IMG/VR virus record: IMGVR_UViG_3300036770_004428
Location: 30,982-94,981 of that record
Reading direction: 5' to 3' (one strand)
Origin: a virus
Length of the DNA stretch: 64,000 bases
The notes under the pieces were generated by a model that had not been told where the DNA came from, made no database searches, and saw nothing but the letters and a program-made list of their open reading frames with translations. Position 1 is the stretch's first letter, and every line of letters begins with the position of its first letter. This document shows, in pieces, positions 27,321 to 63,209 of this stretch. The position numbers and the translations under genes were made by a program.

Positions 27321-29042
27321 TTAACTTGGTAACAATGTTATTGTAGCTTCACCTTCTTCTTTGAATTCCTCTCTACCAGCTGCTTTTGGTCCTATTTTAA
27401 CCTTATAATTTTTTAATTTTTTACCTATAAATAAATTAGATATATTATCAGTACTAATTAATACCGCGTCAGTACCTAATTTTTGTTTTATACCTGGATA
27501 ATATAATATAAGTGTATCTTTTTTAGATATAGATTTTTTAACTAATACCCTATTAGATTTAAATTCATTATTTAAAAATGTTTCAATATTATCTGAAGTC
27601 CATGAACTAGCACCAGTACCCTTAATATTTGAAATCTTAGAATTACTAGTAGCTAGGGATTCCCCTTTAGGTACATTAGTTTTTTTACCACTACCACTCA
27701 CTTCATCATCGTCATCATCTCTTTCATAAGCAAAATTAGGGACAGATAATATTTTTAATTTTCTGTCATAAACATCAGACTCTTCTTCTGCCTCAAAAAC
27801 CATTTCTTGAATAATACTAAATAATGATGTAGTACTTTCGTTTTTAGATTTATTGGAAAATTCTATTCTTGTTTTAGCTAGGGCACTTGAAAAATTAACG
27901 ATTGTACCAACTAATTTTTTATACAATTGTTCTCTTTTTTTCTCATCACTATAGTTAGCCTGACCTTCTTTTACAATTAAAAATAATAATTTAAAGAATT
28001 TTTTAATTTCTGTGTAAGTAGGTGTGTTTTTACAACACTTATTTAATTTAACAAAAGTTGTAAAAACATTACTAAAAAAAGAAGACATTTGATTTTCCCA
28101 ACCAACAGGTAATTGATCTTTTTTATTTATTTCTCTACTTCTAGTAGGGGCCTCTAATAAACCATTTTCTTTTAACTTTTTTAAAGTAACAGAAATAGGT
28201 TCACCGTTTATTTTAATATTTGTTATTTTAGACCTAATTAAATTTAACAATAAAGCATCTCTGAAATTTTTGTTATCAGAATAATTTGTTAATTTTAATT
28301 GTTTAATTGTATTAGCTGATTTTTGTAAATTATTTATTTTTTCATTTAAATCTTTTAAATCGTCTTTACCTAATTTAACATATTGTGTACTATCTTTACC
28401 ACCTTCTTTATTATCGGTATTTGTTTCAGTTTTATCATCACCAACATTTGTGTTAGTGCTATTATCATTATTAATTTCTTCTTGATCACTATTTTCTTCA
28501 GAATCAGTCGGTATATCACCTATTGAGGCTTCAGCTTCAGTGATTTTAACATCATAAATTTTACCCTTTAATAACATGGGTAAATTTATTTTAGTACTTA
28601 ATAGATTTTTTTGTAATGTTTTAGGTGAAAATAAAATTTTATATTTTTTTTCTTCTTTCTTATAGGATTCATCTTCAGAATCAACGTCTTCAGTTACAGT
28701 AAAATAAATAATAAAATTTTCTGCTGTACTATCTTGGTCAACCTCTGCTTTACCTTTAATATTTTGATTATTACCATCAAAATAATTATCGATTGGTTTA
28801 TCTAATGAAAAAGAAAAGGGGAATTTTTTTAAAGCTTTATAATAATCTATTGTATCTTGATCATCTAATGATGCCGCATTAATACCCATTGACCTTAAAT
28901 TATCTTTAATTCTATCTATAGTAACATCGGCTCTAGCCGCATGATGTGCCGCTTGGTCACCACTTACGGGTTGGGTTTTTAGTCTATCTATATCCTTTGC
29001 TTTACCAAAAGGGGAGTCAGGTATGATATCTCTTACAGGCAT
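27321..29042 (-). CDS. Virion-region protein sharing a domain with the 771-aa protein
   Basis: A 573-aa protein with no recognised family. Residues about 230-390 are clearly related to residues about 540-700 of the protein encoded at 31939-34254. Shared landmarks in order are KINGxPIS.TL, ENGLLEAP.RSR (DNGLLEAP there), INKK.QLP.GWENQM, NP/TPTY..IKK and a Lys-rich YSD.KKR. A low-complexity Asp/Asn/Thr linker lies near 185-225. It follows the tail-chaperone pair and precedes the tape measure, with its own ATATTTAT box 14 nt before the ATG. A role in tail assembly or as an ejected protein is inferred from position. Confidence 0.65.
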   Translation of the reverse strand: MPVRDIIPDSPFGKAKDIDRLKTQPVSGDQAAHHAARADVTIDRIKDNLRSMGINAASLDDQDTIDYYKALKKFPFSFSLDKPIDNYFDGNNQNIKGKAEVDQDSTAENFIIYFTVTEDVDSEDESYKKEEKKYKILFSPKTLQKNLLSTKINLPMLLKGKIYDVKITEAEASIGDIPTDSEENSDQEEINNDNSTNTNVGDDKTETNTDNKEGGKDSTQYVKLGKDDLKDLNEKINNLQKSANTIKQLKLTNYSDNKNFRDALLLNLIRSKITNIKINGEPISVTLKKLKENGLLEAPTRSREINKKDQLPVGWENQMSSFFSNVFTTFVKLNKCCKNTPTYTEIKKFFKLLFLIVKEGQANYSDEKKREQLYKKLVGTIVNFSSALAKTRIEFSNKSKNESTTSLFSIIQEMVFEAEEESDVYDRKLKILSVPNFAYERDDDDDEVSGSGKKTNVPKGESLATSNSKISNIKGTGASSWTSDNIETFLNNEFKSNRVLVKKSISKKDTLILYYPGIKQKLGTDAVLISTDNISNLFIGKKLKNYKVKIGPKAAGREEFKEEGEATITLLPS

Positions 29043-31938: not shown

Positions 31939-34254
31939 TTATTTCATTAATTGATTAATTCTTTTTAATTCCTCAATTAAGACATTGTCACCTGGATTAT
32001 AATGTGCTAATTCTGGTTTAACATTATTATCTATATTTTTAGTCATTCTTTGTTTACCTTTTTCTTTAGCTGCCCTTCTTTTTTCTATTTCTTCATCTGA
32101 AGGTTTACCTTCTTTACCTTTAACAAAATTTGGTGTTTTAGACATTGTTGAGAAAAAGTTTTGTAGAGAACCAATTAATTTTTTAAATAATTCTGATCTT
32201 TTTTTATCGTCACTATAACTACCCTTACCTTCTCTACTTATAATATATAGTTGTTTGAATAACTTTTTTATTTGATTATAGGTAGGATTATTTTTACAAG
32301 ATTTGTTTAGTAAAACAAAAAGTTTAAATAAATCACTAAAAAAAGCGGTCATTTGATTTTCCCAACCCGATGGTAATTGTTGTTTTTTGTTTATATCTCT
32401 ACTTCTAAGCGGTGCTTCCAATAGACCATTATCATAAAGTTGTCTTAAAGTTTCTGATATTGGTTTCCCGTTTATTTTTATAGAAGTTACTTTTGAATTT
32501 AAAAAGTTATCTAATAATGTTTTTTGGAACATTGTGTTACTAGAATAATCCATTAACTTCATTTTTCTTAATACCGAAGCTCTAGACTTAACCCCAGAAA
32601 GTAATTGATTTAAATCGTCTACATTTTTACTACAAAGATTATTGTTTTCCTTTTTAACAGGTTCACCATCTTTATTAGATTCAACGTTATCATCATCATC
32701 TAAATTATAGATTACTGGTATATTTTCTTCGGTTGGTTTTATATTTTTAAGTGATTGTAATAAATCATCTAAAGTTTTTGCTCTAGACTGTCTTTGGCCT
32801 TTTTCTCTTAAAACTTTAACAGTTATACCAGCCAAAACTAACCCAAGACCCAACGGGCCTAAAATATTACCTAAACCTTTTGCGGTGTAATAGGCTGCAC
32901 CAGTTTTAACCGCGGTTCTAGTAACAAATTTAGTTACCAAAACAGGTACTTGTTTAACTATTATTGATTTTAAGAATGTACCTGATTTAGTACCATATAG
33001 TGTTGTATCTAAACCACTATCAGGGTCGACCAATTTACCTGTACCAGAAGCACCAGCTTTAAAGAACTGACCCATATTATCGTATTTATCGGGATTATTA
33101 ACTAAATCGTGTAAACCAGGTGCTGCATCACCAGGTCTCATCATCCAACCACCATTTTGACATAATAAATCAACACCTTTATGAGCGTCACCACCACCAA
33201 TTTGTTCTAATTGTGCAATAAATTGTTGTGGGTCCGAGTTAGCATCAACAGGTATACCAGTAACTCTACTTAAACCAACATAAACACCTTCACCATTTTT
33301 TATACCATTTAATACTTCGGTTTTTTGTTCTACTATTTCTGTTACTTGTTCTGTATCTGTGTAAGTTATTTCTTCTGTAAATAAACTTTTAAACCATTCG
33401 GTGTTAGCTAACCAGGAATATGCTCCCATAGCACCACCAACCATATTAAGTAAAAGAGGTAATCTATTACTTTCTAGACCTTCTTTACCCATCCTTTTGG
33501 TTTCAAATTCACCACTACCTGATGATTTTTGAAACTTCGCTGATTGTCCCGAACCACCTTTTGCGGGTTTATCAGAACCTTTTTCTGCCCCAAAAGCTTT
33601 GTCAAACATTCTATCTTTAGCAGCTTTAACTGCACCAAGACCTTTACCTATTGCTCCACCTATAGATTTAAGGATACCTTTTTCATCTAATAATTCCTTT
33701 TCTTCTTCAGTTAAAATATCCCATTTTAAAATCTCTATCTCTTCTTCAGTTAAAATATTATCTCTTTCTTCTTCAGATTCCATAGTGGTATAAACACCAG
33801 CTAAATCTACATCTAGGTATTTTTTAACAATCTCCCTAAGGTCGTTAATAATTTCATTAGCAGCATCTATAGGTAAAAAACCTTCTTCTTCAGGTGTTTT
33901 CTTTGTTGCTGCAACAATTGAATCATAAAATGCTCCTATTGTTATAATACCTTTAAGGAAGGTAAATCTTTTTTTATCATTTGGGAATTCTGGTGCAACT
34001 CTTCTAACTTCAGCATCTAATTCTCTAAGTAATTTATTAGTTTCTTTGGCTAATATTGCTCTTATTTTATTTTCAGCATCTTTAGTTACTTTACCTTTAC
34101 CGAATATCTTACCACCAGCTTTATATCTTCCTAATTTAGATAACCCATATTTTATGTTTTCCCAAGCACCTTCGTCGATCCTTTCCCTATTTTCTACAGG
34201 TTCTAACGATTCATATAACTTGGTTAAAGCATTATCATAATTTATTTTTTCCAT
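31939..34254 (-). CDS. Candidate internal virion protein with paralogous C-terminal domain
   Basis: A 771-aa protein starting MEKINYDNALTKLYESLEPV. The frame is open 29 codons further upstream, but that extension contains the ATATTTAT box and nearly reaches the divergent clpP start, so the ATG at 34254 is chosen. The N-terminal 30 residues carry (L/I)-x-E sites (LYE, IDE). A Gly/Lys-rich region near 200-250 and a hydrophobic run (AYYTAKGLGNILGPLGLGLV and following, about 460-490) could cross a membrane. Residues about 540-700 match the domain in the protein at 27321-29042. The mix of a packaging-type N-terminus and a membrane segment fits an ejected internal protein, but this is inference. 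Confidence 0.65.
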   Translation of the reverse strand: MEKINYDNALTKLYESLEPVENRERIDEGAWENIKYGLSKLGRYKAGGKIFGKGKVTKDAENKIRAILAKETNKLLRELDAEVRRVAPEFPNDKKRFTFLKGIITIGAFYDSIVAATKKTPEEEGFLPIDAANEIINDLREIVKKYLDVDLAGVYTTMESEEERDNILTEEEIEILKWDILTEEEKELLDEKGILKSIGGAIGKGLGAVKAAKDRMFDKAFGAEKGSDKPAKGGSGQSAKFQKSSGSGEFETKRMGKEGLESNRLPLLLNMVGGAMGAYSWLANTEWFKSLFTEEITYTDTEQVTEIVEQKTEVLNGIKNGEGVYVGLSRVTGIPVDANSDPQQFIAQLEQIGGGDAHKGVDLLCQNGGWMMRPGDAAPGLHDLVNNPDKYDNMGQFFKAGASGTGKLVDPDSGLDTTLYGTKSGTFLKSIIVKQVPVLVTKFVTRTAVKTGAAYYTAKGLGNILGPLGLGLVLAGITVKVLREKGQRQSRAKTLDDLLQSLKNIKPTEENIPVIYNLDDDDNVESNKDGEPVKKENNNLCSKNVDDLNQLLSGVKSRASVLRKMKLMDYSSNTMFQKTLLDNFLNSKVTSIKINGKPISETLRQLYDNGLLEAPLRSRDINKKQQLPSGWENQMTAFFSDLFKLFVLLNKSCKNNPTYNQIKKLFKQLYIISREGKGSYSDDKKRSELFKKLIGSLQNFFSTMSKTPNFVKGKEGKPSDEEIEKRRAAKEKGKQRMTKNIDNNVKPELAHYNPGDNVLIEELKRINQLMK

Positions 34255-34272
34255 TTGACTAATTCTTTTTTT

Positions 34273-34280
34273 ATAAATAT
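34273..34280 (-). promoter_or_regulatory. ATATTTAT late-promoter-like box
   Basis: The minus strand reads GATATTTATAAAAAAAG, 18 nt before the chosen ATG at 34254. It lies in the short gap between this gene and divergent clpP. Confidence 0.5.
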
Positions 34281-34308
34281 CATTGTTTAAATAAAAAAAA
34301 TTAACAAT

Positions 34309-34998
34309 ATGACAGAATTTGATAAATACGCAGTTAAACACATGGGAATTGGTTCTAACACACTACATGACTACCAAAGTTTCCAATCGATTGCTCCTAT
34401 GATTACTAACTCCGTAACACCAACCATTATTGAAGAAAGACAAATGAATGTTGCATTAATGTCTGTATTTGATAGATTAATGATGGATAGAATTATTTGG
34501 TGTGCTGGTCCAGTGGATGATAGAATGGCTATTATTGTTCAAGCACAACTTTTATTCCTTTCACAACAAGACCCAAAGAAAACTATTACAATTCACGTTG
34601 ATTCACCTGGTGGTTCTGTTAAATCAGGATTGTCTATGGTTGATGTTATGAATTATATCCCAAATAACATCCAAACCATAAATACAGGTATGGCGGCATC
34701 TATGGGTTCAGTTTTATTGGGTGCTGGTACAAAGGGTATGAGATCTTCTTTATTACACTCAAGAACAATGTTACACCAATCTAGTGGTGGAGCTATGGGT
34801 AATATCCAAGACGCTAGAATCACTATGAATGAATGGGAAAAAATAAACAAAGAATTGTTTAAACTTTTGGGTGAGTATTGTGGTAAAAAACCTTCACAAG
34901 TAGAAAAAGACGCACAAAGAGATTTATGGTTAAGTGCTGATGAAGCTTTAGAATATGGTATTATTGATGAGGTAATAGGTAGACAAAATAAAAAATAA
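34309..34998 (+). CDS. clpP: ClpP-family serine protease
   Basis: A 229-aa protein with a complete ClpP catalytic triad: Ser131 in GMAASMGS, His156 in RTMLHQ and Asp205 in QRDLWLSADEA. The ITIHVDSPGGSV strand and oxyanion glycines are present, as is the closing EALEYGIIDEVI. About 45 extra N-terminal residues precede the core. It is a lone plus-strand gene inside the minus-strand internal-protein cluster and ends at a strong terminator. Possible roles are a phage ClpP that alters host proteolysis, or a maturation protease. Canonical ClpP features favour the first. No ClpX partner was seen in the window. Confidence 0.88.
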   Translation: MTEFDKYAVKHMGIGSNTLHDYQSFQSIAPMITNSVTPTIIEERQMNVALMSVFDRLMMDRIIWCAGPVDDRMAIIVQAQLLFLSQQDPKKTITIHVDSPGGSVKSGLSMVDVMNYIPNNIQTINTGMAASMGSVLLGAGTKGMRSSLLHSRTMLHQSSGGAMGNIQDARITMNEWEKINKELFKLLGEYCGKKPSQVEKDAQRDLWLSADEALEYGIIDEVIGRQNKK

Positions 34999-35024
34999 AA
35001 AAAGGGACTTTAAGTCCCTTTTTA
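34997..35024. terminator. Bidirectional intrinsic terminator between clpP and the HAD operon
   Basis: The stem AAAAAGGGACTT / AAGTCCCTTTTT, flanked by A- and T-runs, lies between the convergent clpP stop and the stop of the 183-aa gene, serving both. Confidence 0.8.
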
Positions 35025-35573
35025 AATTCTATTAATTTTTGTTTCAAACTCTACCCCATGTTCATCAAAATAAGTAATCCACCATCTTTCTACTGTTGCG
35101 TAATCACCACTATAAGAATCGTAAGATAAAATACCCATATCATATAGGTCATCTTTTAACATTTCATCTAAGGCATCTCTTTCTGTATTATATACAGTAT
35201 CCTCATCAAAACCATTTTTAGGGATTTTATTTAATTCATTTTTCATCCAATTGGTTACAATATAATCATTGCCACCATCTAAATATAAATCTATTAATTT
35301 CTCAAGACTAAAATAACCAGACGAATTAAAACCGTTTTGTAAAATTTTAACATACCTGATTAATTTATCAGTTCCATCAGAATCATTTTTAAAAGTATAC
35401 CAGTTATCAACCCAAGTTCCTCTATCTTCACCATGACCATTAGTCCAATGTAACCTAAAAACATTCTTTGGATTTTTTTGTGTGACTGGTTCCGTTATTT
35501 CAATAAAAGATGGGACATCACTTATCCAATCAAAATCAGATTCTTTTAATATTTTTTTAATTATATACTTCAT
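35022..35573 (-). CDS. Candidate packaged protein with capsid-targeting-like N-terminus (183 aa)
   Basis: Starts MKYIIKKILKESDFDW, nearly the same as the upstream neighbour's MKHLIKKILKEEMEDFDW, although the rest of the two proteins differs. The I-L-K-E ending matches the (L/I)-x-E cleavage rule of the T4 prohead protease. The body is acidic and Trp/Tyr/Asp-rich with no recognised family. It is last in a three-gene operon with an ATATTTAT box and ends at a terminator. Function after packaging is unknown. Confidence 0.7.
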   Translation of the reverse strand: MKYIIKKILKESDFDWISDVPSFIEITEPVTQKNPKNVFRLHWTNGHGEDRGTWVDNWYTFKNDSDGTDKLIRYVKILQNGFNSSGYFSLEKLIDLYLDGGNDYIVTNWMKNELNKIPKNGFDEDTVYNTERDALDEMLKDDLYDMGILSYDSYSGDYATVERWWITYFDEHGVEFETKINRI

Positions 35574-35575
35574 GA

Positions 35576-36064
35576 TTAATTATGTAGTGGTTTACCTTCT
35601 TTTTCTCTTTTATTTAACCATTGTTTAAAAATATCTAATGTTTCTAAAATTGTTAAATTATTATCTTCAGCAAATTGACCGAAATATTCGTAAGCCTGAT
35701 AAATTTCTGAGGCTGAAGATTGTAATATACTCTTACCTCCAAGAGATCTAAGTGGTGATAAATAAGAATAAACATCTTTCGCTAACAAAGCGTATTTTTG
35801 ACTACCATCTCTTGGGTTAACTAAGTCGTTAACCATTTCGGATAACTCTTGAATATCATCCATAAAAACGGCGTGTGACATAATAGATTCGTCACACCAA
35901 TTTAGCCACCAAGTGATATCACGTTTTATGTAATCACCAGGGGTAAAACCTCTTCTGTTTCTACCATAAAAATAATCTTCAAAAGATTGTAATGGATCAA
36001 TTTGATTTGTCCAATCAAAATCTTCCATCTCCTCCTTTAATATTTTTTTAATTAGATGTTTCAT
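35576..36064 (-). CDS. Candidate packaged protein with capsid-targeting-like N-terminus (162 aa)
   Basis: The N-terminus MKHLIKKILKEEMEDFDW mirrors that of the 183-aa neighbour and ends in L-K-E at residue 11. The body has a basic FYGRNRRGFTPGDYIKR stretch near residues 32-48 and helical segments; no family recognised. The start overlaps the HAD-like gene stop by 4 nt (ATGA), and the stop is 2 nt before the next gene, so translation is coupled. Late expression and packaging are inferred. Confidence 0.7.
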   Translation of the reverse strand: MKHLIKKILKEEMEDFDWTNQIDPLQSFEDYFYGRNRRGFTPGDYIKRDITWWLNWCDESIMSHAVFMDDIQELSEMVNDLVNPRDGSQKYALLAKDVYSYLSPLRSLGGKSILQSSASEIYQAYEYFGQFAEDNNLTILETLDIFKQWLNKREKEGKPLHN

Positions 36065-36921
36065 TCCTTTTCAATCACCATTTTACGTTTTCCTTTTTCA
36101 GATGTATCGTAAACAACGAAATGTACTTCAGGGTACATTTTATTCAATTCCTCCTCTATAAATTTTTCAACTGACCTAACATTTCTAATATCGTCATCTG
36201 AAAAACCAACAGACATTTTTGTATAATCACCATTAATTAGTGTGCCTATATTTCTAAATATTTTTTTAACAAAATCTTCAATAGCGACTTTTTTTGCGTG
36301 TTCAGGGTTTGCTGCACCACCCGATACCTCCAAACCAAATCTTTGACCAAATTCATCTGATGATACAGGATAATACTCACCCATCTCATCTAAATAAAAA
36401 TCTATTGCTTGGTCATCAGTTAAACCTTCTGTTTGTTTTAATAATTTTCTAATGTTATTAACCATTTCAGATTTTTCTTCTCTAGTTAATACCATATCGA
36501 TAAAAAGTCTAACACCATCTCTAAGAATTTCTGGTTTATGACCCCTAGCTGTATTAATACCAAAAGGGTTGGCGTATATTAAAGATTCCTTAAATTTATC
36601 GGCACTTGGTGCAAATTTATTAGCGTGAATAGCTTGTTTTGCGTCTCTAATAAAAGGTTCTGATTCTTTAAAATCTTTAAAGGCTAAATTAGAATCATTG
36701 TTTCTTAACCTATAATTTGGATTTGTTCTAACTTGAGCAAATTCTTCTGTAGAGACATCAATAGGAACCCACGAATCACCTTCTTTTTTATCCATCTTAA
36801 TTGTTGTAGGCATATAAAGGATGTTATCGTCCCAATCAAAAACATAAGTTCTGATTCTATTTTCTATTAAGTATTTTTGTAGTTTTGTATATTGTTTTTC
36901 AGATAAAATATATTTTTTCAT
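36061..36921 (-). CDS. HAD-superfamily phosphatase-like protein with capsid-targeting-like N-terminus
   Basis: A 286-aa protein. After a 20-residue basic/helical leader ending Y-L-I-E, HAD motif I appears as VFDWDDNIL with Asp29 and Asp31. Motif II is likely NTARGH with Thr124, a motif III Lys may lie in HAKKVAIEDF, and motif IV is VGFSDDDIRN near residue 245. HAD enzymes remove phosphate from nucleotides, sugars or proteins; the substrate here cannot be told. The Asn in DDN, where many HAD enzymes have Thr or Gly, is ordinary variation. It is first in an operon of three packaged-protein candidates and has an ATATTTAT box 16 nt upstream. Confidence 0.7.
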   Translation of the reverse strand: MKKYILSEKQYTKLQKYLIENRIRTYVFDWDDNILYMPTTIKMDKKEGDSWVPIDVSTEEFAQVRTNPNYRLRNNDSNLAFKDFKESEPFIRDAKQAIHANKFAPSADKFKESLIYANPFGINTARGHKPEILRDGVRLFIDMVLTREEKSEMVNNIRKLLKQTEGLTDDQAIDFYLDEMGEYYPVSSDEFGQRFGLEVSGGAANPEHAKKVAIEDFVKKIFRNIGTLINGDYTKMSVGFSDDDIRNVRSVEKFIEEELNKMYPEVHFVVYDTSEKGKRKMVIEKE

Positions 36922-36937
36922 AAAAAAATCTTTTTAT

Positions 36938-36945
36938 ATAAATAT
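36938..36945 (-). promoter_or_regulatory. ATATTTAT late-promoter-like box
   Basis: The minus strand reads AATATTTATATAAAAAG, 16 nt before the ATG at 36921. It is divergent from, and only 19 nt away from, a Bacteroidota-type plus-strand promoter. Confidence 0.5.
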
Positions 36946-36964
36946 TAAAAAATTAATTAAAATT

Positions 36965-36994
36965 TTTGTATTATATAAAATATGTCTATATTTG
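36965..36994 (+). promoter_or_regulatory. Bacteroidota-type promoter for the small membrane protein gene
   Basis: TTTG at 36965-36968, an 18-nt spacer and TATATTTG at 36987-36994 match the Bacteroidota consensus. The gene starts at 37029, 34 nt after the -7 box. Confidence 0.65.
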
Positions 36995-37028
36995 CATTCA
37001 ATACGTCTAATTAAAATAATAAAATAAA

Positions 37029-37355
37029 ATGGAAGAAAAGGAATTAATGGAAGAATTAAGTTTTTATAAATCAAAGTCTAACTTTACTGTTAAATTTTTT
37101 ATTTTGCTTTTCTCCCTCATCGAAAGAATTAACAACCAAGTTTTTTATTTGGTTTTATCGTTATCTACAGCGTTTTTACTTTGTTATATTTTTAACATTA
37201 ACTATCTTTCTATGTTAATATGCCATTTTATTCTATGGATAACTTTGGGTAAAAAACTCTTTAATCAAGATAAAATGGTGGAAGAAAATAAAGAAATTTC
37301 TTTTCTTATTAAAGAATTAAAAAAACATTTAAAAAACAAAAAAGGTGTGAATTAA
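37029..37355 (+). CDS. Small membrane protein
   Basis: A 108-aa protein with two or three hydrophobic helices (about residues 22-35, 39-58 and 60-73) between charged ends: an N-terminal MEEKELMEEL and a Lys-rich C-terminal coil. It has its own Bacteroidota-type promoter and terminator and points against its late-gene neighbours, so it is probably expressed early by host RNA polymerase. Possible roles include superinfection exclusion or lysis timing, but no family was recognised. Confidence 0.65.
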   Translation: MEEKELMEELSFYKSKSNFTVKFFILLFSLIERINNQVFYLVLSLSTAFLLCYIFNINYLSMLICHFILWITLGKKLFNQDKMVEENKEISFLIKELKKHLKNKKGVN

Positions 37356-37368
37356 TTCACACCTTTTT
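37338..37368. terminator. Bidirectional intrinsic terminator
   Basis: The near-perfect palindrome AAAAAGGTGTGAA / TTCACACCTTTTT overlaps the end of the small membrane protein gene and serves the convergent 185-aa gene too. Confidence 0.8.
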
Positions 37369-37388
37369 AATTACTATCTAATTAATAA

Positions 37389-37946
37389 TTATTTCTGTGC
37401 TCTAATAACTCCTCTGAATATCATTAAAACAGATAAGCCTATTGCTAACATAGCAAATGGACCACAATAAGTAGGATGTGGTAACATATTACAATAAGGT
37501 TCTAAATAATTGTGTAATTGTGTTAACCATTTAGAATCAGTGTATCCCATAAGTTGTGAAGCGAATGCCGGTATAGAAACGCCCAAACCAGTTAAACCAA
37601 GAGCTTGTGTTATTCTACCAATAATCTTATTTAACATACCTTCAGTCATTAATTCTTTATTTTCACCTAAAATACTTTCAGCCATTCCAGCATCTAAAGC
37701 TGATGGGTCTTGTCCTGCTTTTTTAGCTATCATTTTTAAATCTGACATAACTTCTGGATCTTTTTTAGCCATATCCATAATAACTGATTTTAATTTTTCT
37801 ACGGCTTTTTTAAGGGTATCGATAAAATTATCTATCATTCCTTCAGTCATTAATTGTGATTCATTCATTGATTTTTTGTTTTCTTTAACAAAAGATTCAA
37901 CCACCATCTCCAATTGTTGTTTTGTTACTTTATATCTAGTTCCCAT
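37389..37946 (-). CDS. Candidate packaged membrane-type protein with repeated LMTEG sites
   Basis: A 185-aa protein. The leader (MGTRYKVTKQQLEMVVESF then VKE) has the same layout as the zinc-ribbon neighbour. QLMTEGMIDNFID (about 31-43) is echoed by ELMTEGMLNKIIG (about 98-110), so an internal repeat with possible cleavage sites is present. The C-terminal half has a hydrophobic Gly-rich segment (about 112-130) and a likely membrane helix (FAMLAIGLSVLMIF, about 164-177). No family recognised. It is co-transcribed with the zinc-ribbon gene. An ejected protein that touches the cell membrane is a reasonable guess only. Confidence 0.65.
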   Translation of the reverse strand: MGTRYKVTKQQLEMVVESFVKENKKSMNESQLMTEGMIDNFIDTLKKAVEKLKSVIMDMAKKDPEVMSDLKMIAKKAGQDPSALDAGMAESILGENKELMTEGMLNKIIGRITQALGLTGLGVSIPAFASQLMGYTDSKWLTQLHNYLEPYCNMLPHPTYCGPFAMLAIGLSVLMIFRGVIRAQK

Positions 37947-37949
37947 TTT

Positions 37950-38633
37950 TTATTTATTATAATTTATTATTTTATTAAAGAAGTCCATATCTTCTTTTAG
38001 GATTTTATTGTTTGTTGTTTTAGTTACTGATTCAGCTAAACCGTTTACAGATTCTGCAACATCATCCTTTTTATCTTCGTCAGCTGGTTCTACTTTATAA
38101 GTTTTACCATCAACAGTAAAGGTAGCTTTACCTTCTTCTCTAGCTTTTTCTAATTCACCAGTAAATTCATTTCCTTCATCAACACCAGCTTCAACCATGT
38201 TCATTGAATACCCACATTCATTACAAGTACCTTCTACCATCATTCCTGTACCACATTCTGAACACATTTTATTTTCTGACATGTAATCACCTTCTTTCAT
38301 TTCATCGTCATAAGAAAGTGTGACATTGTTACCACAATCACATTTACCGTCTTTATGTAGTGTGTCCATTTGTTCTTTTGAAATAACAACACAGTCCATT
38401 TTTTCTGAAGATAATTTAGTTAAAAGTTCTGACATTTTTTTGTCATCACCTTTAATATCCTCATAATAAACTAAACATTTGTCGTCACACATACAGTGAC
38501 CATTTTTATGTAAGTCATCCATATGTTGTTTAGTAAGTTTAATTTCACCTTCAGCCTCATTCATATATTGAGATTCTTTAAGTGTAGATTCAATTACCAT
38601 ACTTAACTGTTTTCTTGTTATAAGTTTTGACAT
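37950..38633 (-). CDS. Zinc-ribbon, Cys-rich candidate packaged protein
   Basis: A 227-aa acidic protein. The leader MSKLITRKQLSMVIESTLKE ends in L-K-E like its neighbours. Two related units follow: LTKQHMDDLHKNGHCMCDDK (about 33-52) and ISKEQMDTLHKDGKCDCGNN (about 84-103), each with a C-x-C. A zinc ribbon comes next with Cys124, Cys127, Cys137 and Cys140 (CSECG ... CNECG). Near the C-terminus KILKEDMDFF repeats the leader theme. Metal binding is likely from the Cys spacing; the target is unknown. An ATATTTAT box lies 16 nt before the ATG, right behind the sheath terminator. Confidence 0.7.
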   Translation of the reverse strand: MSKLITRKQLSMVIESTLKESQYMNEAEGEIKLTKQHMDDLHKNGHCMCDDKCLVYYEDIKGDDKKMSELLTKLSSEKMDCVVISKEQMDTLHKDGKCDCGNNVTLSYDDEMKEGDYMSENKMCSECGTGMMVEGTCNECGYSMNMVEAGVDEGNEFTGELEKAREEGKATFTVDGKTYKVEPADEDKKDDVAESVNGLAESVTKTTNNKILKEDMDFFNKIINYNK

Positions 38634-38649: not shown

Positions 38650-38657
38650 ATAAATAT
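38650..38657 (-). promoter_or_regulatory. ATATTTAT late-promoter-like box
   Basis: The minus strand reads AATATATTTATTAATAAA, 16 nt before the ATG at 38633, starting only a few bases after the sheath-gene terminator hairpin. Confidence 0.5.
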
Positions 38658-57471: not shown

Positions 57472-57681
57472 ATGGAAAAAAATAAAGAACAAGTCGAACA
57501 CCCAAAACACTATAATCAAGGTATTGAGATGTGGGATTACGCTTATTCACACGATTTAGATTTCTTTGAAGGTAATATTGTTAAGTACGTTACACGTTGG
57601 AGACATAAGAATGGTTTACAAGATTTATATAAAGCAAAACAATATTTAGATAAATTAATCGAACTGAAAGAAAATTCATGA
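57472..57681 (+). CDS. DUF3310 family small protein
   Basis: A 69-aa protein with the family hallmark VEHPKHYNQGIEMWDY, then FFEGNIVKYVTRWRHKNGLQ DLYKA and a closing helix. DUF3310 proteins are common in phages and are sometimes annotated as nucleotide kinases without biochemical support. It begins just after an A-rich leader, divergent from the 52-aa gene, and precedes the DHH-sigma gene by 22 nt. Confidence 0.85.
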   Translation: MEKNKEQVEHPKHYNQGIEMWDYAYSHDLDFFEGNIVKYVTRWRHKNGLQDLYKAKQYLDKLIELKENS

Positions 57682-57688
57682 TATTTAT
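57681..57688 (+). promoter_or_regulatory. ATATTTAT late-promoter-like box for the DHH-sigma gene
   Basis: The plus strand reads GATATTTATCTCAAAAGG, 15 nt before the ATG at 57704. It shows that the box keeps its orientation relative to transcription on both strands. Confidence 0.5.
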
Positions 57689-57703: not shown

Positions 57704-59659
57704 ATGAATATTATTATAAAAGAAGAATTGTTGAATGAGGGTGGTTTACGTAATATACGAGAACTAGCTAATAGATATAATAAAGCAAAAATATATTTCC
57801 ACCAAGATCTTGACGGTGTAACTACTGCTTTGGCTATGAAAAATTATTTGGAAAATAACGGGATTAAAGTAATTGATGCCGAAGTAATCCAATATGGTGA
57901 TAAAGAATTTTCAATTAAAAAACCCTCTGCAAGTGGTGATGTAATGCCAGTTCTAGTAGATTTTGCTCACGGAAAACCGATGTTTGTTATTCACACAGAC
58001 CATCACGATAAACAAGTTGGTGCAGAAAAAGGTGCTTCAACTTCATTTAGAGCATCTAGGTCAAACGTTGAGACCATTTCACAAATAGTTTCTTCTTCAG
58101 ATATTTTTCCTGATAATGATATTAAAATGATATCTACGGTAGATTCGGCTGATTTTGTTAAAATGGGAGTTACACCGGATGATATTATGACATATGTCTT
58201 CCAATTAGATAAAGAAAAAGAATTATCTAGAAATAAAATTATCATGGCTTTAGTAACTAATAAACTATTATTGGCTTACAAAAACAAACCTAAATTTTTG
58301 GAAAGATTAGTTATGAATTCATCTCCTTCTCTTCTAAACATTTATTTTAATATAATTAAATTAGCTAAAGAAGAAGGTTATGTTTCACCTGAGATAATGA
58401 AAAAAAATCTAGAGGACTATATAGAAGCACAAAAAAAGAGTGAAAATGTAGAGTATATAAAGGATTATGGTATTATATCACAATACGGTGGTGGGGCATT
58501 ATTTAAACCAGGTGCATATGATAGATATGTACCTTTTAAAAATTATCCTGACGCAAACTTTTTAGTCATAGCATGGCCTTTAGGTTTATTACAGGCATCA
58601 TGTAATCCATTTAAAGCTAGTAGAGAATTAAAAGGTGTTAACTTAGGTGAGATAGCACAAGAAGTTTTAGCTCAATATGAATCAGAACTTAAATCTAAAA
58701 AAATAACCATAGATACTATAAAATATTTTGCTGAAAAAAATAAAGAATTTGTTGAGGAGTCTGTCGGATTTACCTTCAACGACCTAGTTGCAATGTTTGA
58801 AGAAACTGATGGTGGCATAGAAGGTTTGAATACTGTACCGAGTGGTTCTTCTAGTGATTATACTGTTGACAGGTGGCATAACGCTTTAAGAAAAGTAATG
58901 GATAAACCTTATTCATTGTTAAATGATAGGGAAAAAAAGGCACTTAAACTTTTAAGTGTGACTGGTTGGGACATGATTCAGGCTAATAGTGGTGGACATA
59001 AATGTATCACTAATATATCAGGTTTAATGTACTTTGGTAAAGATGGTAAAGAATTTTTACTGAAATTTAAGGATAGTTTAATAAATAAGTTAAAGGAAAA
59101 AATAGACTCCGATAAAATATCTGAAAATATTTTTACTAAAAAACAAATATTAAAAGAAGTAAATGAGTTTCAAGACATCTATTCTAGTATGTGGGATAAA
59201 ATGTTAAGGTCAGTATGTATGAAATACACAAAAGATGTAAATCAGGCCGAAGACTTTTGTCAAAATGGTTTTATTAAGGTATACCAAAATTTAAACAAAT
59301 ATGATAACACAGGTTCTCTAGAGGGTTGGGTTAAAAGAGTTATTAACAATAGTATTTTAGATGAATTAAGAAAAAATAAAATTTCTTTTGTGAGTGGTGG
59401 TGATGAAGGTTTTGATTTTTCTAGATATAATGTAGGTGATGAGGAATATGAGGAAGGTATTTCTTTAGAAGATATTAAAAAAGTTTTACCACAATTACCA
59501 CAATCTTATAAAAAAGCAATAGAAATGTATTATATAGAAGGTTTAAAACATGACGAAATAGCCAAAAAATTAGGTATATCACCAAGTACATCTAAAACAA
59601 ACCTAATGAAGGCAAAGGCTAGAATGAAGGATTTATTATCAAATACATACAATCAGTAA
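57704..59659 (+). CDS. DHH/DHHA1 phosphoesterase fused to an ECF-like sigma factor
   Basis: A 651-aa fusion. The leader MNIIIKEELLNEG ends in L-N-E. A DHH phosphoesterase domain follows with all four metal motifs: HQDLDG (33-38), VLVDF (Asp86), HTDHH (97-101) and STVDSAD (Asp147, Asp150). A DHHA1-type GGHKCITN occurs near 425-440. From about 493 the protein becomes a sigma-70-family factor: region 2 (QAEDFCQNGFIKVYQNL, then SLEGWVKRVINNSILDELR) and region 4 (LPQSYKKAIEMYYIEGLK, then HDEIAKKLGISPSTSKTNL, a helix-turn-helix). DHH enzymes cut small oligonucleotides or cyclic dinucleotides; ECF sigmas direct RNA polymerase. A late-type box and packaging-type leader suggest late synthesis and virion delivery, which is inference. 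Internal Met503 or nearby Met codons could also yield a free sigma. Confidence 0.85.
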   Translation: MNIIIKEELLNEGGLRNIRELANRYNKAKIYFHQDLDGVTTALAMKNYLENNGIKVIDAEVIQYGDKEFSIKKPSASGDVMPVLVDFAHGKPMFVIHTDHHDKQVGAEKGASTSFRASRSNVETISQIVSSSDIFPDNDIKMISTVDSADFVKMGVTPDDIMTYVFQLDKEKELSRNKIIMALVTNKLLLAYKNKPKFLERLVMNSSPSLLNIYFNIIKLAKEEGYVSPEIMKKNLEDYIEAQKKSENVEYIKDYGIISQYGGGALFKPGAYDRYVPFKNYPDANFLVIAWPLGLLQASCNPFKASRELKGVNLGEIAQEVLAQYESELKSKKITIDTIKYFAEKNKEFVEESVGFTFNDLVAMFEETDGGIEGLNTVPSGSSSDYTVDRWHNALRKVMDKPYSLLNDREKKALKLLSVTGWDMIQANSGGHKCITNISGLMYFGKDGKEFLLKFKDSLINKLKEKIDSDKISENIFTKKQILKEVNEFQDIYSSMWDKMLRSVCMKYTKDVNQAEDFCQNGFIKVYQNLNKYDNTGSLEGWVKRVINNSILDELRKNKISFVSGGDEGFDFSRYNVGDEEYEEGISLEDIKKVLPQLPQSYKKAIEMYYIEGLKHDEIAKKLGISPSTSKTNLMKAKARMKDLLSNTYNQ

Positions 59660-62677: not shown

Positions 62678-62685
62678 ATATTTAT
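62678..62685 (+). promoter_or_regulatory. ATATTTAT late-promoter-like box
   Basis: The plus strand reads GATATTTATATAGAAAAG, 14 nt before the ATG at 62700, directly after the polymerase gene. It suggests a switch to late transcription for the following genes. Confidence 0.5.
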
Positions 62686-62699
62686 ATAGAAAAGTTAAT

Positions 62700-63209
62700 A
62701 TGAATATCATTTTATTAAATGAATTAGTTAATTCAGATGGTAGTAGAATAAAGGGTGATTCTAAAGTAGATCAGTCTAATAATATGACAACATCTAAATT
62801 AACTACTGACGATAAAGTACTTATGCAAAGACCTGGTATTAGTAGATACAGTAACTATGGTCGTGTGTATGTAGGTGAAGAAGATGATGAAGTAACAAAA
62901 TTACCGCCCAAAAAAAAATCTAAGAAAAAAGCTAAACTAAAAGAGGATGTTTTTACTAAAAAAGATTTTGATAAAGAATTTGTACAAAAAAAAATAGAAA
63001 ATCTATCACAAAACAATATCCAAAATCTAGACTCAATTAGAGACACAAACCCAATCCTAATAAGAAAAGTTGGTGCATTAAAAGATATTATAGAAAAAAA
63101 TAGTGCTAGTGGTGAAGAAAAGGCGGTGATATTAAATTATCTTTTAGATATGGATTTATCTGATATACCACAAAATTATAAAGAAATATTAAAAAGAAAA
63201 TTAGGATAA
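62700..63209 (+). CDS. Candidate packaged/virion protein with short capsid-targeting-like start
   Basis: A 169-aa charged protein starting MNIILLNELVNSDGSR; the L-N-E at residues 6-8 would be a prohead-protease-type site. A Lys-rich KKKSKKKAKLKEDVFTKKDF stretch lies near residues 71-90, and its FTKK-x motif is also found in the DHH-sigma protein. The C-terminal half is helical. No family recognised. It begins a late-type operon; its stop overlaps the next ATG (TAATGG). Confidence 0.6.
   Translation: MNIILLNELVNSDGSRIKGDSKVDQSNNMTTSKLTTDDKVLMQRPGISRYSNYGRVYVGEEDDEVTKLPPKKKSKKKAKLKEDVFTKKDFDKEFVQKKIENLSQNNIQNLDSIRDTNPILIRKVGALKDIIEKNSASGEEKAVILNYLLDMDLSDIPQNYKEILKRKLG

Follow-up and report, generated by a model that had tools for sequence, protein, structure and literature searches.

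The window analysed here, a 64,000-nucleotide stretch corresponding to bases 30982-94981 of a 94,981-base virus contig (IMG/VR record IMGVR_UViG_3300036770_004428), encodes a set of proteins with unrelated bodies that begin with a short leader ending in [ILV]xE. We assign a probability of about 0.8 to the reading that these leaders are capsid-targeting propeptides working like the leader of the T4 internal proteins. The original prediction, that they would target proteins to the prohead and be cut there by a T4-type protease, is strongly supported by comparison: the residues at P7, P4, P3 and P1 (numbered back from the predicted cut), the S77 prohead protease and the major capsid protein (MCP) signature in relatives, orthologues that lack the leader, and orthologues in which a T4-like leader replaces it are all consistent with this role.

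By analogy with T4, we infer targeting, cutting, packaging and injection of the leader proteins. A short amphipathic, basic N-terminal segment would bring late-expressed proteins into the prohead core, and the phage's S77 prohead protease would then cleave after the Glu of (L/I)-x-E; the same rule should be applied by this protease to the MCP and to the scaffold. The mature proteins would remain in the DNA-filled head and be ejected together with the genome. Within this group of phages, the leader has become attached to dozens of proteins that are otherwise unrelated.

The source contig belongs to a T4-like myophage. It is AT-rich (G+C content 0.31), and the window codes for the sheath, tube and baseplate of a T4-like contractile tail, for replication functions and for numerous open reading frames (ORFs) without assigned function. 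When 20 kb of the contig were searched for near-identical sequence in an annotated phage collection, nothing matched; relatives are numerous in IMG/VR, some reaching 380 kb, and G001 (380 kb) and G005 (318 kb) were retrieved as comparison genomes. The leader statistics are based on three contigs with 935 ORFs, called by a simple script with starts as called, and the chance expectations given below depend on this caller.

The leader family and its statistics

A position-specific matrix of ten residues, the last being Glu, gave 59 N-terminal matches against 2.7 expected from internal windows; it was used in place of a first broad regular expression, whose enrichment was only about 3-4-fold. All eight N-termini on which the original prediction was built are present where they had been placed, their resemblance exceeds chance, and they belong to a much larger set. 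The pattern [ILVM]I[KR][KRE][ILVM][ILV][KRNI]E occurs 26 times within the first 30 residues and once everywhere else. Since the matrix had been trained iteratively on the same data, training and test genomes were separated in a repeat test, in which a score of 14 yielded 24 matches (0.5 expected), 16 matches (0.4 expected) and, with G002 as a third genome, 11 matches (0.3 expected), with training leaders drawn from the joint search and the separation thus good but imperfect. The more distant G009 gave a weak signal (8 matches, 1.6 expected).

Large genomes carry about 25-45 leader genes each, or 44-48 genes with a leader-like start under looser rules that admit some false positives, and leader genes adjoin one another more often than expected by chance. 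When stretches sampled from Flavobacterium phage immuto, Rhodothermus phage RM378 and Microcystis phage Mel-JY01 were scanned with the same matrix, no leader family emerged; the family is therefore not a general feature of far-T4 phages. Literature searches turned up no description of this leader, a weak indication of novelty given thin coverage of subscription journals.

Among 58 leaders, whose Glu at P1 is fixed by construction of the matrix, P3 was Leu, Ile or Val in 100%, P4 hydrophobic in 95% and P7 hydrophobic in 93%, and P5/P6 were basic in about 80%. In T4, IPIII needs no more than its first ten residues to be packaged, with residues 4 and 7 mattering in targeting and residues 8 and 10 in processing (PMC9026906). 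Numbered from the cut, these four residues are P7, P4, P3 and P1, the same positions as those fixed here. The system thus resembles T4 IPI, IPII and IPIII in placing a short shared N-terminal leader, hydrophobic at P7, P4 and P3 and with Glu at P1, on unrelated proteins (PMC9026906, PMC3012670, PMC12373910).

The composition of the leader also suits a membrane-binding amphipathic helix of the MinD/FtsA kind, which would hold the proteins at the inner membrane, with the terminal Glu serving as a helix cap. The i/i+3/i+4 pattern is basic and amphipathic, with hydrophobic residues at P8, P7, P4 and P3 and basic ones at P6, P5 and P2. We consider this explanation unlikely, for it leaves the near-fixed P3 and P1, next to a free P2 and P1', unexplained in the DHH and HAD families described below, and does not account for a Glu lying exactly at the body boundary, for leaderless orthologues that start at the mature residue, for an MCP that follows the same rule, or for leaders of a 634-kb phage that are unlike in composition and have the same ending.

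The bodies are as diverse as originally claimed: 101 leader-like proteins fall into 76 body clusters, 61 of them singletons. Pfam families among them include SprT-like, PolyA polymerase head, phage lysozyme, PAP2, glutaredoxin and sigma-70, among others, mostly with one member each. A blind alignment of 78 leader proteins gave a mean column identity of 5%, a consensus start MxxxIKKILKE and a Glu column conserved in at least 90%. Some bodies are paralogous, as in an eight-member EGRxEDV cluster, and an FDW motif runs on past the leader in 25 proteins, as would be expected if the common N-terminus reflected descent only, within one expanded paralogous family whose bodies had diverged beyond recognition. 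Such an origin is very improbable in view of the 76 body clusters; moreover, the same body is found with different leaders or with none, indicating that leader and body move independently.

Where leaders end and bodies begin

The alignment of leaders across related phages, proposed earlier as a check, placed their ends at the start of the conserved body in the DHH, HAD and 31939 families (genes are named by their coordinates in the window; Table 1). Thirty different N-termini were found in the DHH family, with leaders of 7 to 14 residues, and 29 of the 30 end in [ILV]xE directly before (S/T/G)G(L/I)(R/Q). The lone exception has no leader and starts Met-GGIRN, which corresponds to the predicted mature residue, and likewise in G001. 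In the DHH gene at G005:C1:109057 the reading frame changes after FHQDL, which points to a sequencing error or to a gene that is broken.

In all 20 leader-bearing HAD orthologues, [ILV]xE precedes the catalytic strand by 5-9 residues; five orthologues without a leader start at that strand. In the AlphaFold model of the window protein, residues 1-20 have a predicted local distance difference test (pLDDT) score of about 51 and the confident fold begins at about residue 22, where most of its VIA-align ranges also begin. The earlier assignment of this body as a HAD phosphatase remains tentative. Its DWDD motif is invariant and the VIA-align rows are mostly HAD; Z values are mostly below 8 (best 9.9, Pnkp1/Rnl/Hen1 complex), no Pfam match was obtained, and Foldseek of the model returned none under 1e-3.

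Two of the cut sites first proposed call for revision. For the 31939 protein, the original cut (MEKINYDNALTKLYE, then S) gives way to RIDE28 followed by GAW as the best-supported site, (I/L)xE lying 1-3 residues ahead of a conserved (L/A)WxxxKYGLSKLGR body in 15/15 relatives. The cut in the 37389 protein is uncertain: the full leader to the first site is MGTRYKVTKQQLEMVVESFVKE, then N, and the leader is retained across relatives while the downstream sequence differs. A second site, LMTE35 followed by GM, is common to the window protein and the three orthologues with an altered first site discussed below, and the protein is possibly cut there, between LMTE and G. Aligned full-length orthologues of the 37950 protein retain (L/M/I)xE; its body, described earlier as a zinc ribbon, is indeed Cys-rich, with a DZR match that is weak and below the cut-off. 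Membership of 62700 is doubtful, as a single orthologue (MNIILLSE) was found.

The 634-kb phage LR745206 encodes the same HAD and DHH cargo, again with leaders that end before the body; these are MIKKFNQFLE and MISKYNQFINE, respectively, aromatic and closer in look to the T4 leader than those of the window. The leader thus follows the phage lineage, and the cargo is common to lineages. This lineage-bound leader on shared cargo provides the strongest argument for a putative packaging tag. LR745206 (634 kb) and, less clearly, LR756501 (735 kb) seemingly have a T4-like leader family of their own, MxKxYNxFxxE, of which no description was found in the literature searched.

Protease, capsid protein and upstream box

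Six relatives encode an S77 prohead protease as well as gp23, the proteases being conserved around GELNHP and GISSRG (four aligned). The N-terminal region of the MCP in six relatives ends at residue 60 with L(I/L)(S/N)E, then (T/S), and the stretch beyond it varies in length; in those relatives that were compared, (I/L)xE is also retained close to the C-terminal end of the scaffold. Both protease and MCP are encoded by G002, which shares 99.4% identity with the window in its tail tube. Comparison thus establishes a leader family, a putative cut signature, a modular boundary and, in relatives, the protease. Small extra ORFs (78-196 amino acids) that match parts of gp23 were seen far from the capsid gene in G002, G003, G004, G005, G006 and G007, for example at G004:C1:41829-42216 and G005:C1:11337-11696.

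Several observations weigh against cleaved, capsid-targeting leaders. No portal, protease or capsid gene was seen in the window, and its whole contig has neither a protease (no PF03420 match) nor an MCP, which is explained by the absence of the head module from this fragment. The T4 leader reads MKTYQEFIAE, and the leader here, exemplified by MKNLIKKILKE, has different residues, with basic KK at P5/P6; it is more basic than that of T4, too short for showing homology and not demonstrably homologous. Taken by itself, [ILV]xE is a common motif with an N-terminal enrichment of only 1.1-1.3-fold; the signal therefore resides in the whole leader, and the motif is unusable alone. Furthermore, three G001-type orthologues of 37389 carry Asp at P1 of the first site, and several window leader genes sit between the tail sheath and tail tube genes, an order (sheath, leader genes, tube) that is syntenic in G002 and would also suit a tail location.

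The last two points also suit an uncleaved peptide that docks onto some component of the virion or tail, with the proteins structural in tail or head, as a T4 leader with Asp at P1 still allows targeting (PMC9026906). We regard such a peptide as quite unlikely, since the members are mostly scattered accessory genes, some enzyme-like (SprT-like, lysozyme, PolyA polymerase head, PAP2, glutaredoxin), and since leaders and MCP have the cut signature in common.

The proposed capsid targeting by a cleaved leader is of a known kind, that of T4, and what is new is its scale, leader sequence, second tag (described below) and cargo. The three internal proteins of T4 have only the leader in common (PMC3012670, PMC12373910); they are injected and inhibit Type IV restriction enzymes (PMC12373910). 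Both systems have an S77-type prohead protease and accessory, fast-changing cargo. However, T4 has 3 leader genes (at least 10 across T4 relatives), far from the number per large genome given above, and the cargo here includes enzymes and a sigma factor, with a second tag after the cut. The phages phiKZ and SPN3US are likewise large, with many head-internal proteins whose N-terminal propeptides a prohead protease removes, some of these proteins being injected (PMC10052503, PMC13282480). Most of their propeptides, in contrast, are long (20-254 residues in SPN3US), and they have no common short leader; known prohead-protease substrates number 9 in SPN3US and 19 in phiKZ (PMC10052503, PMC13282480).

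The late-type box that the original prediction associated with all units was recovered. Among upstream 8-mers, ATATTTAT ranks first in enrichment in genomes G000 and G001 and second in G005 (22-28-fold). It lies 22-26 nucleotides upstream of 31939, 36061, 37950, 57704 and 62700, and the remaining three (37389, 35576 and 35022) are the immediate downstream same-strand neighbours of boxed genes. This putative promoter element precedes 45 of 92 leader genes and 119 of 722 others (five-fold odds, Fisher 3e-11); it is also found upstream of terminase, protease, portal-position and tail genes. Throughout the window, ATATTTAT often lies just 12-28 nucleotides or so ahead of start codons, as at 36938-36945, a distance so small that the 5' leaders of the transcripts may be very short or absent.

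Second tag, DHH-sigma protein and window genes

Of 97 leader proteins, 25 have a [DE]F[DE]W motif 2-6 residues past the predicted cut, against 0.5 expected (within 14 residues); it would form a tag at the new N-terminus after predicted cleavage. Its carriers, many of them in G001 and G005, have bodies mostly without homology beyond the motif.

The DHH-sigma body ascribed to the 57704 protein was borne out for its sigma part, both regions of which are over the Pfam cut-off (Sigma70_r2, 8.7e-15; r4_2, 2.9e-15), with SigW (1.1e-13) and SigE as matches in PDB. The DHH part is below the Pfam cut-off (0.0025) and has RecJ/DhhP-like fold matches. The junction between the two carries ILKE, IIKE, LLKE, INE or ITE in DHH-sigma orthologues, and residues 473-481, flanking ILKE485 in the window protein, have a pLDDT below 50; a cut between phosphoesterase and sigma factor is possible on these grounds. 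Elsewhere, phages carry this DHH domain fused to M23 peptidase, GH19 or peptidoglycan-binding domains, and these fusions to peptidoglycan-acting domains fit proteins travelling with the virion. If released in the head and injected, the sigma factor would, we infer, act on the host polymerase at once.

Tentatively, and with more doubt than confidence, we envisage a kit in which the leader packs dozens of proteins, the D-F-D-W tag retained at the new N-terminus gives roughly one in four of them a common address, be it in the head or in the host, and the DHH-sigma polyprotein is cut twice within the head, so that the sigma factor, once free, arrives along with the DNA and could immediately redirect host RNA polymerase. 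If capsid targeting by the leaders is true, the injected arsenal of large uncultured phages could be read from sequence alone, anti-defence and takeover genes would become selectable among hundreds of unassigned ORFs, new short packaging tags would result, and a phage bringing a sigma factor in its head becomes a testable idea.

Table 1. Leaders, cargo, tags and boxes of the leader genes in the window
Feature	Position	Strand	Basis
Leader of HAD-like gene, MKKYILSEKQYTKLQKYLIE, predicted cut, then N	36862..36921	-	orthologue boundary, AlphaFold
HAD-like phosphatase cargo, motif FDWDDN	36061..36921	-	DWDD motif, VIA-align
Leader MKHLIKKILKE, then E	36032..36064	-	matrix score 29.0; conserved in orthologues
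Second tag DFDW, gene 35576-36064	36011..36022	-	shortly after predicted cut
Cargo, 162 amino acids, function unassigned	35576..36064	-	no Pfam family; weak PHROG match only
Leader MKYIIKKILKE, then S	35541..35573	-	matrix score 25.2
Second tag DFDW, gene 35022-35573	35526..35537	-	shortly after predicted cut
Cargo, 183 amino acids, function unassigned	35022..35573	-	no Pfam family; weak PHROG match only
Leader MSKLITRKQLSMVIESTLKE, then S, gene 37950-38633	38574..38633	-	matrix score 12.2
Cys-rich, zinc-ribbon-like cargo, 227 amino acids	37950..38633	-	weak DZR match, below cut-off
Leader with two candidate cuts, gene 37389-37946	37842..37946	-	ESFVKE22 then N; LMTE35 then GM
Cargo, 185 amino acids, C-terminal hydrophobic stretch	37389..37946	-	
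Predicted propeptide, gene 31939-34254, ends RIDE28 then GAW	34171..34254	-	15/15 relatives
771-amino-acid protein, hydrophobic stretch; candidate cargo or head-internal protein	31939..34254	-	no Pfam/PHROG family
Leader MNIIIKEELLNE, then G, DHH-sigma gene	57704..57739	+	29/30 orthologous leaders
DHH phosphoesterase fused to extracytoplasmic function-type sigma factor	57704..59659	+	Pfam, PDB, fold matches
ILKE485, candidate second cut, DHH/sigma junction	59147..59158	+	site kept in orthologues
Doubtful leader MNIILLNE, then L, gene 62700-63209	62700..62723	+	one orthologue, MNIILLSE; box at -22
Box ATATTTAT upstream of 36061	36938..36945	-	
Box ATATTTAT upstream of 37950	38650..38657	-	
Box ATATTTAT upstream of 31939	34273..34280	-	
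Box ATATTTAT upstream of 57704	57681..57688	+	
Box ATATTTAT upstream of 62700	62678..62685	+	

The proteins encoded at 27321-29042 and 31939-34254 have a C-terminal domain in common and unlike N-terminal parts. A gene for a ClpP-like protease (34309-34998, + strand) lies on the opposite strand inside the block of leader genes and is conserved at this location in G002 (88% identity).

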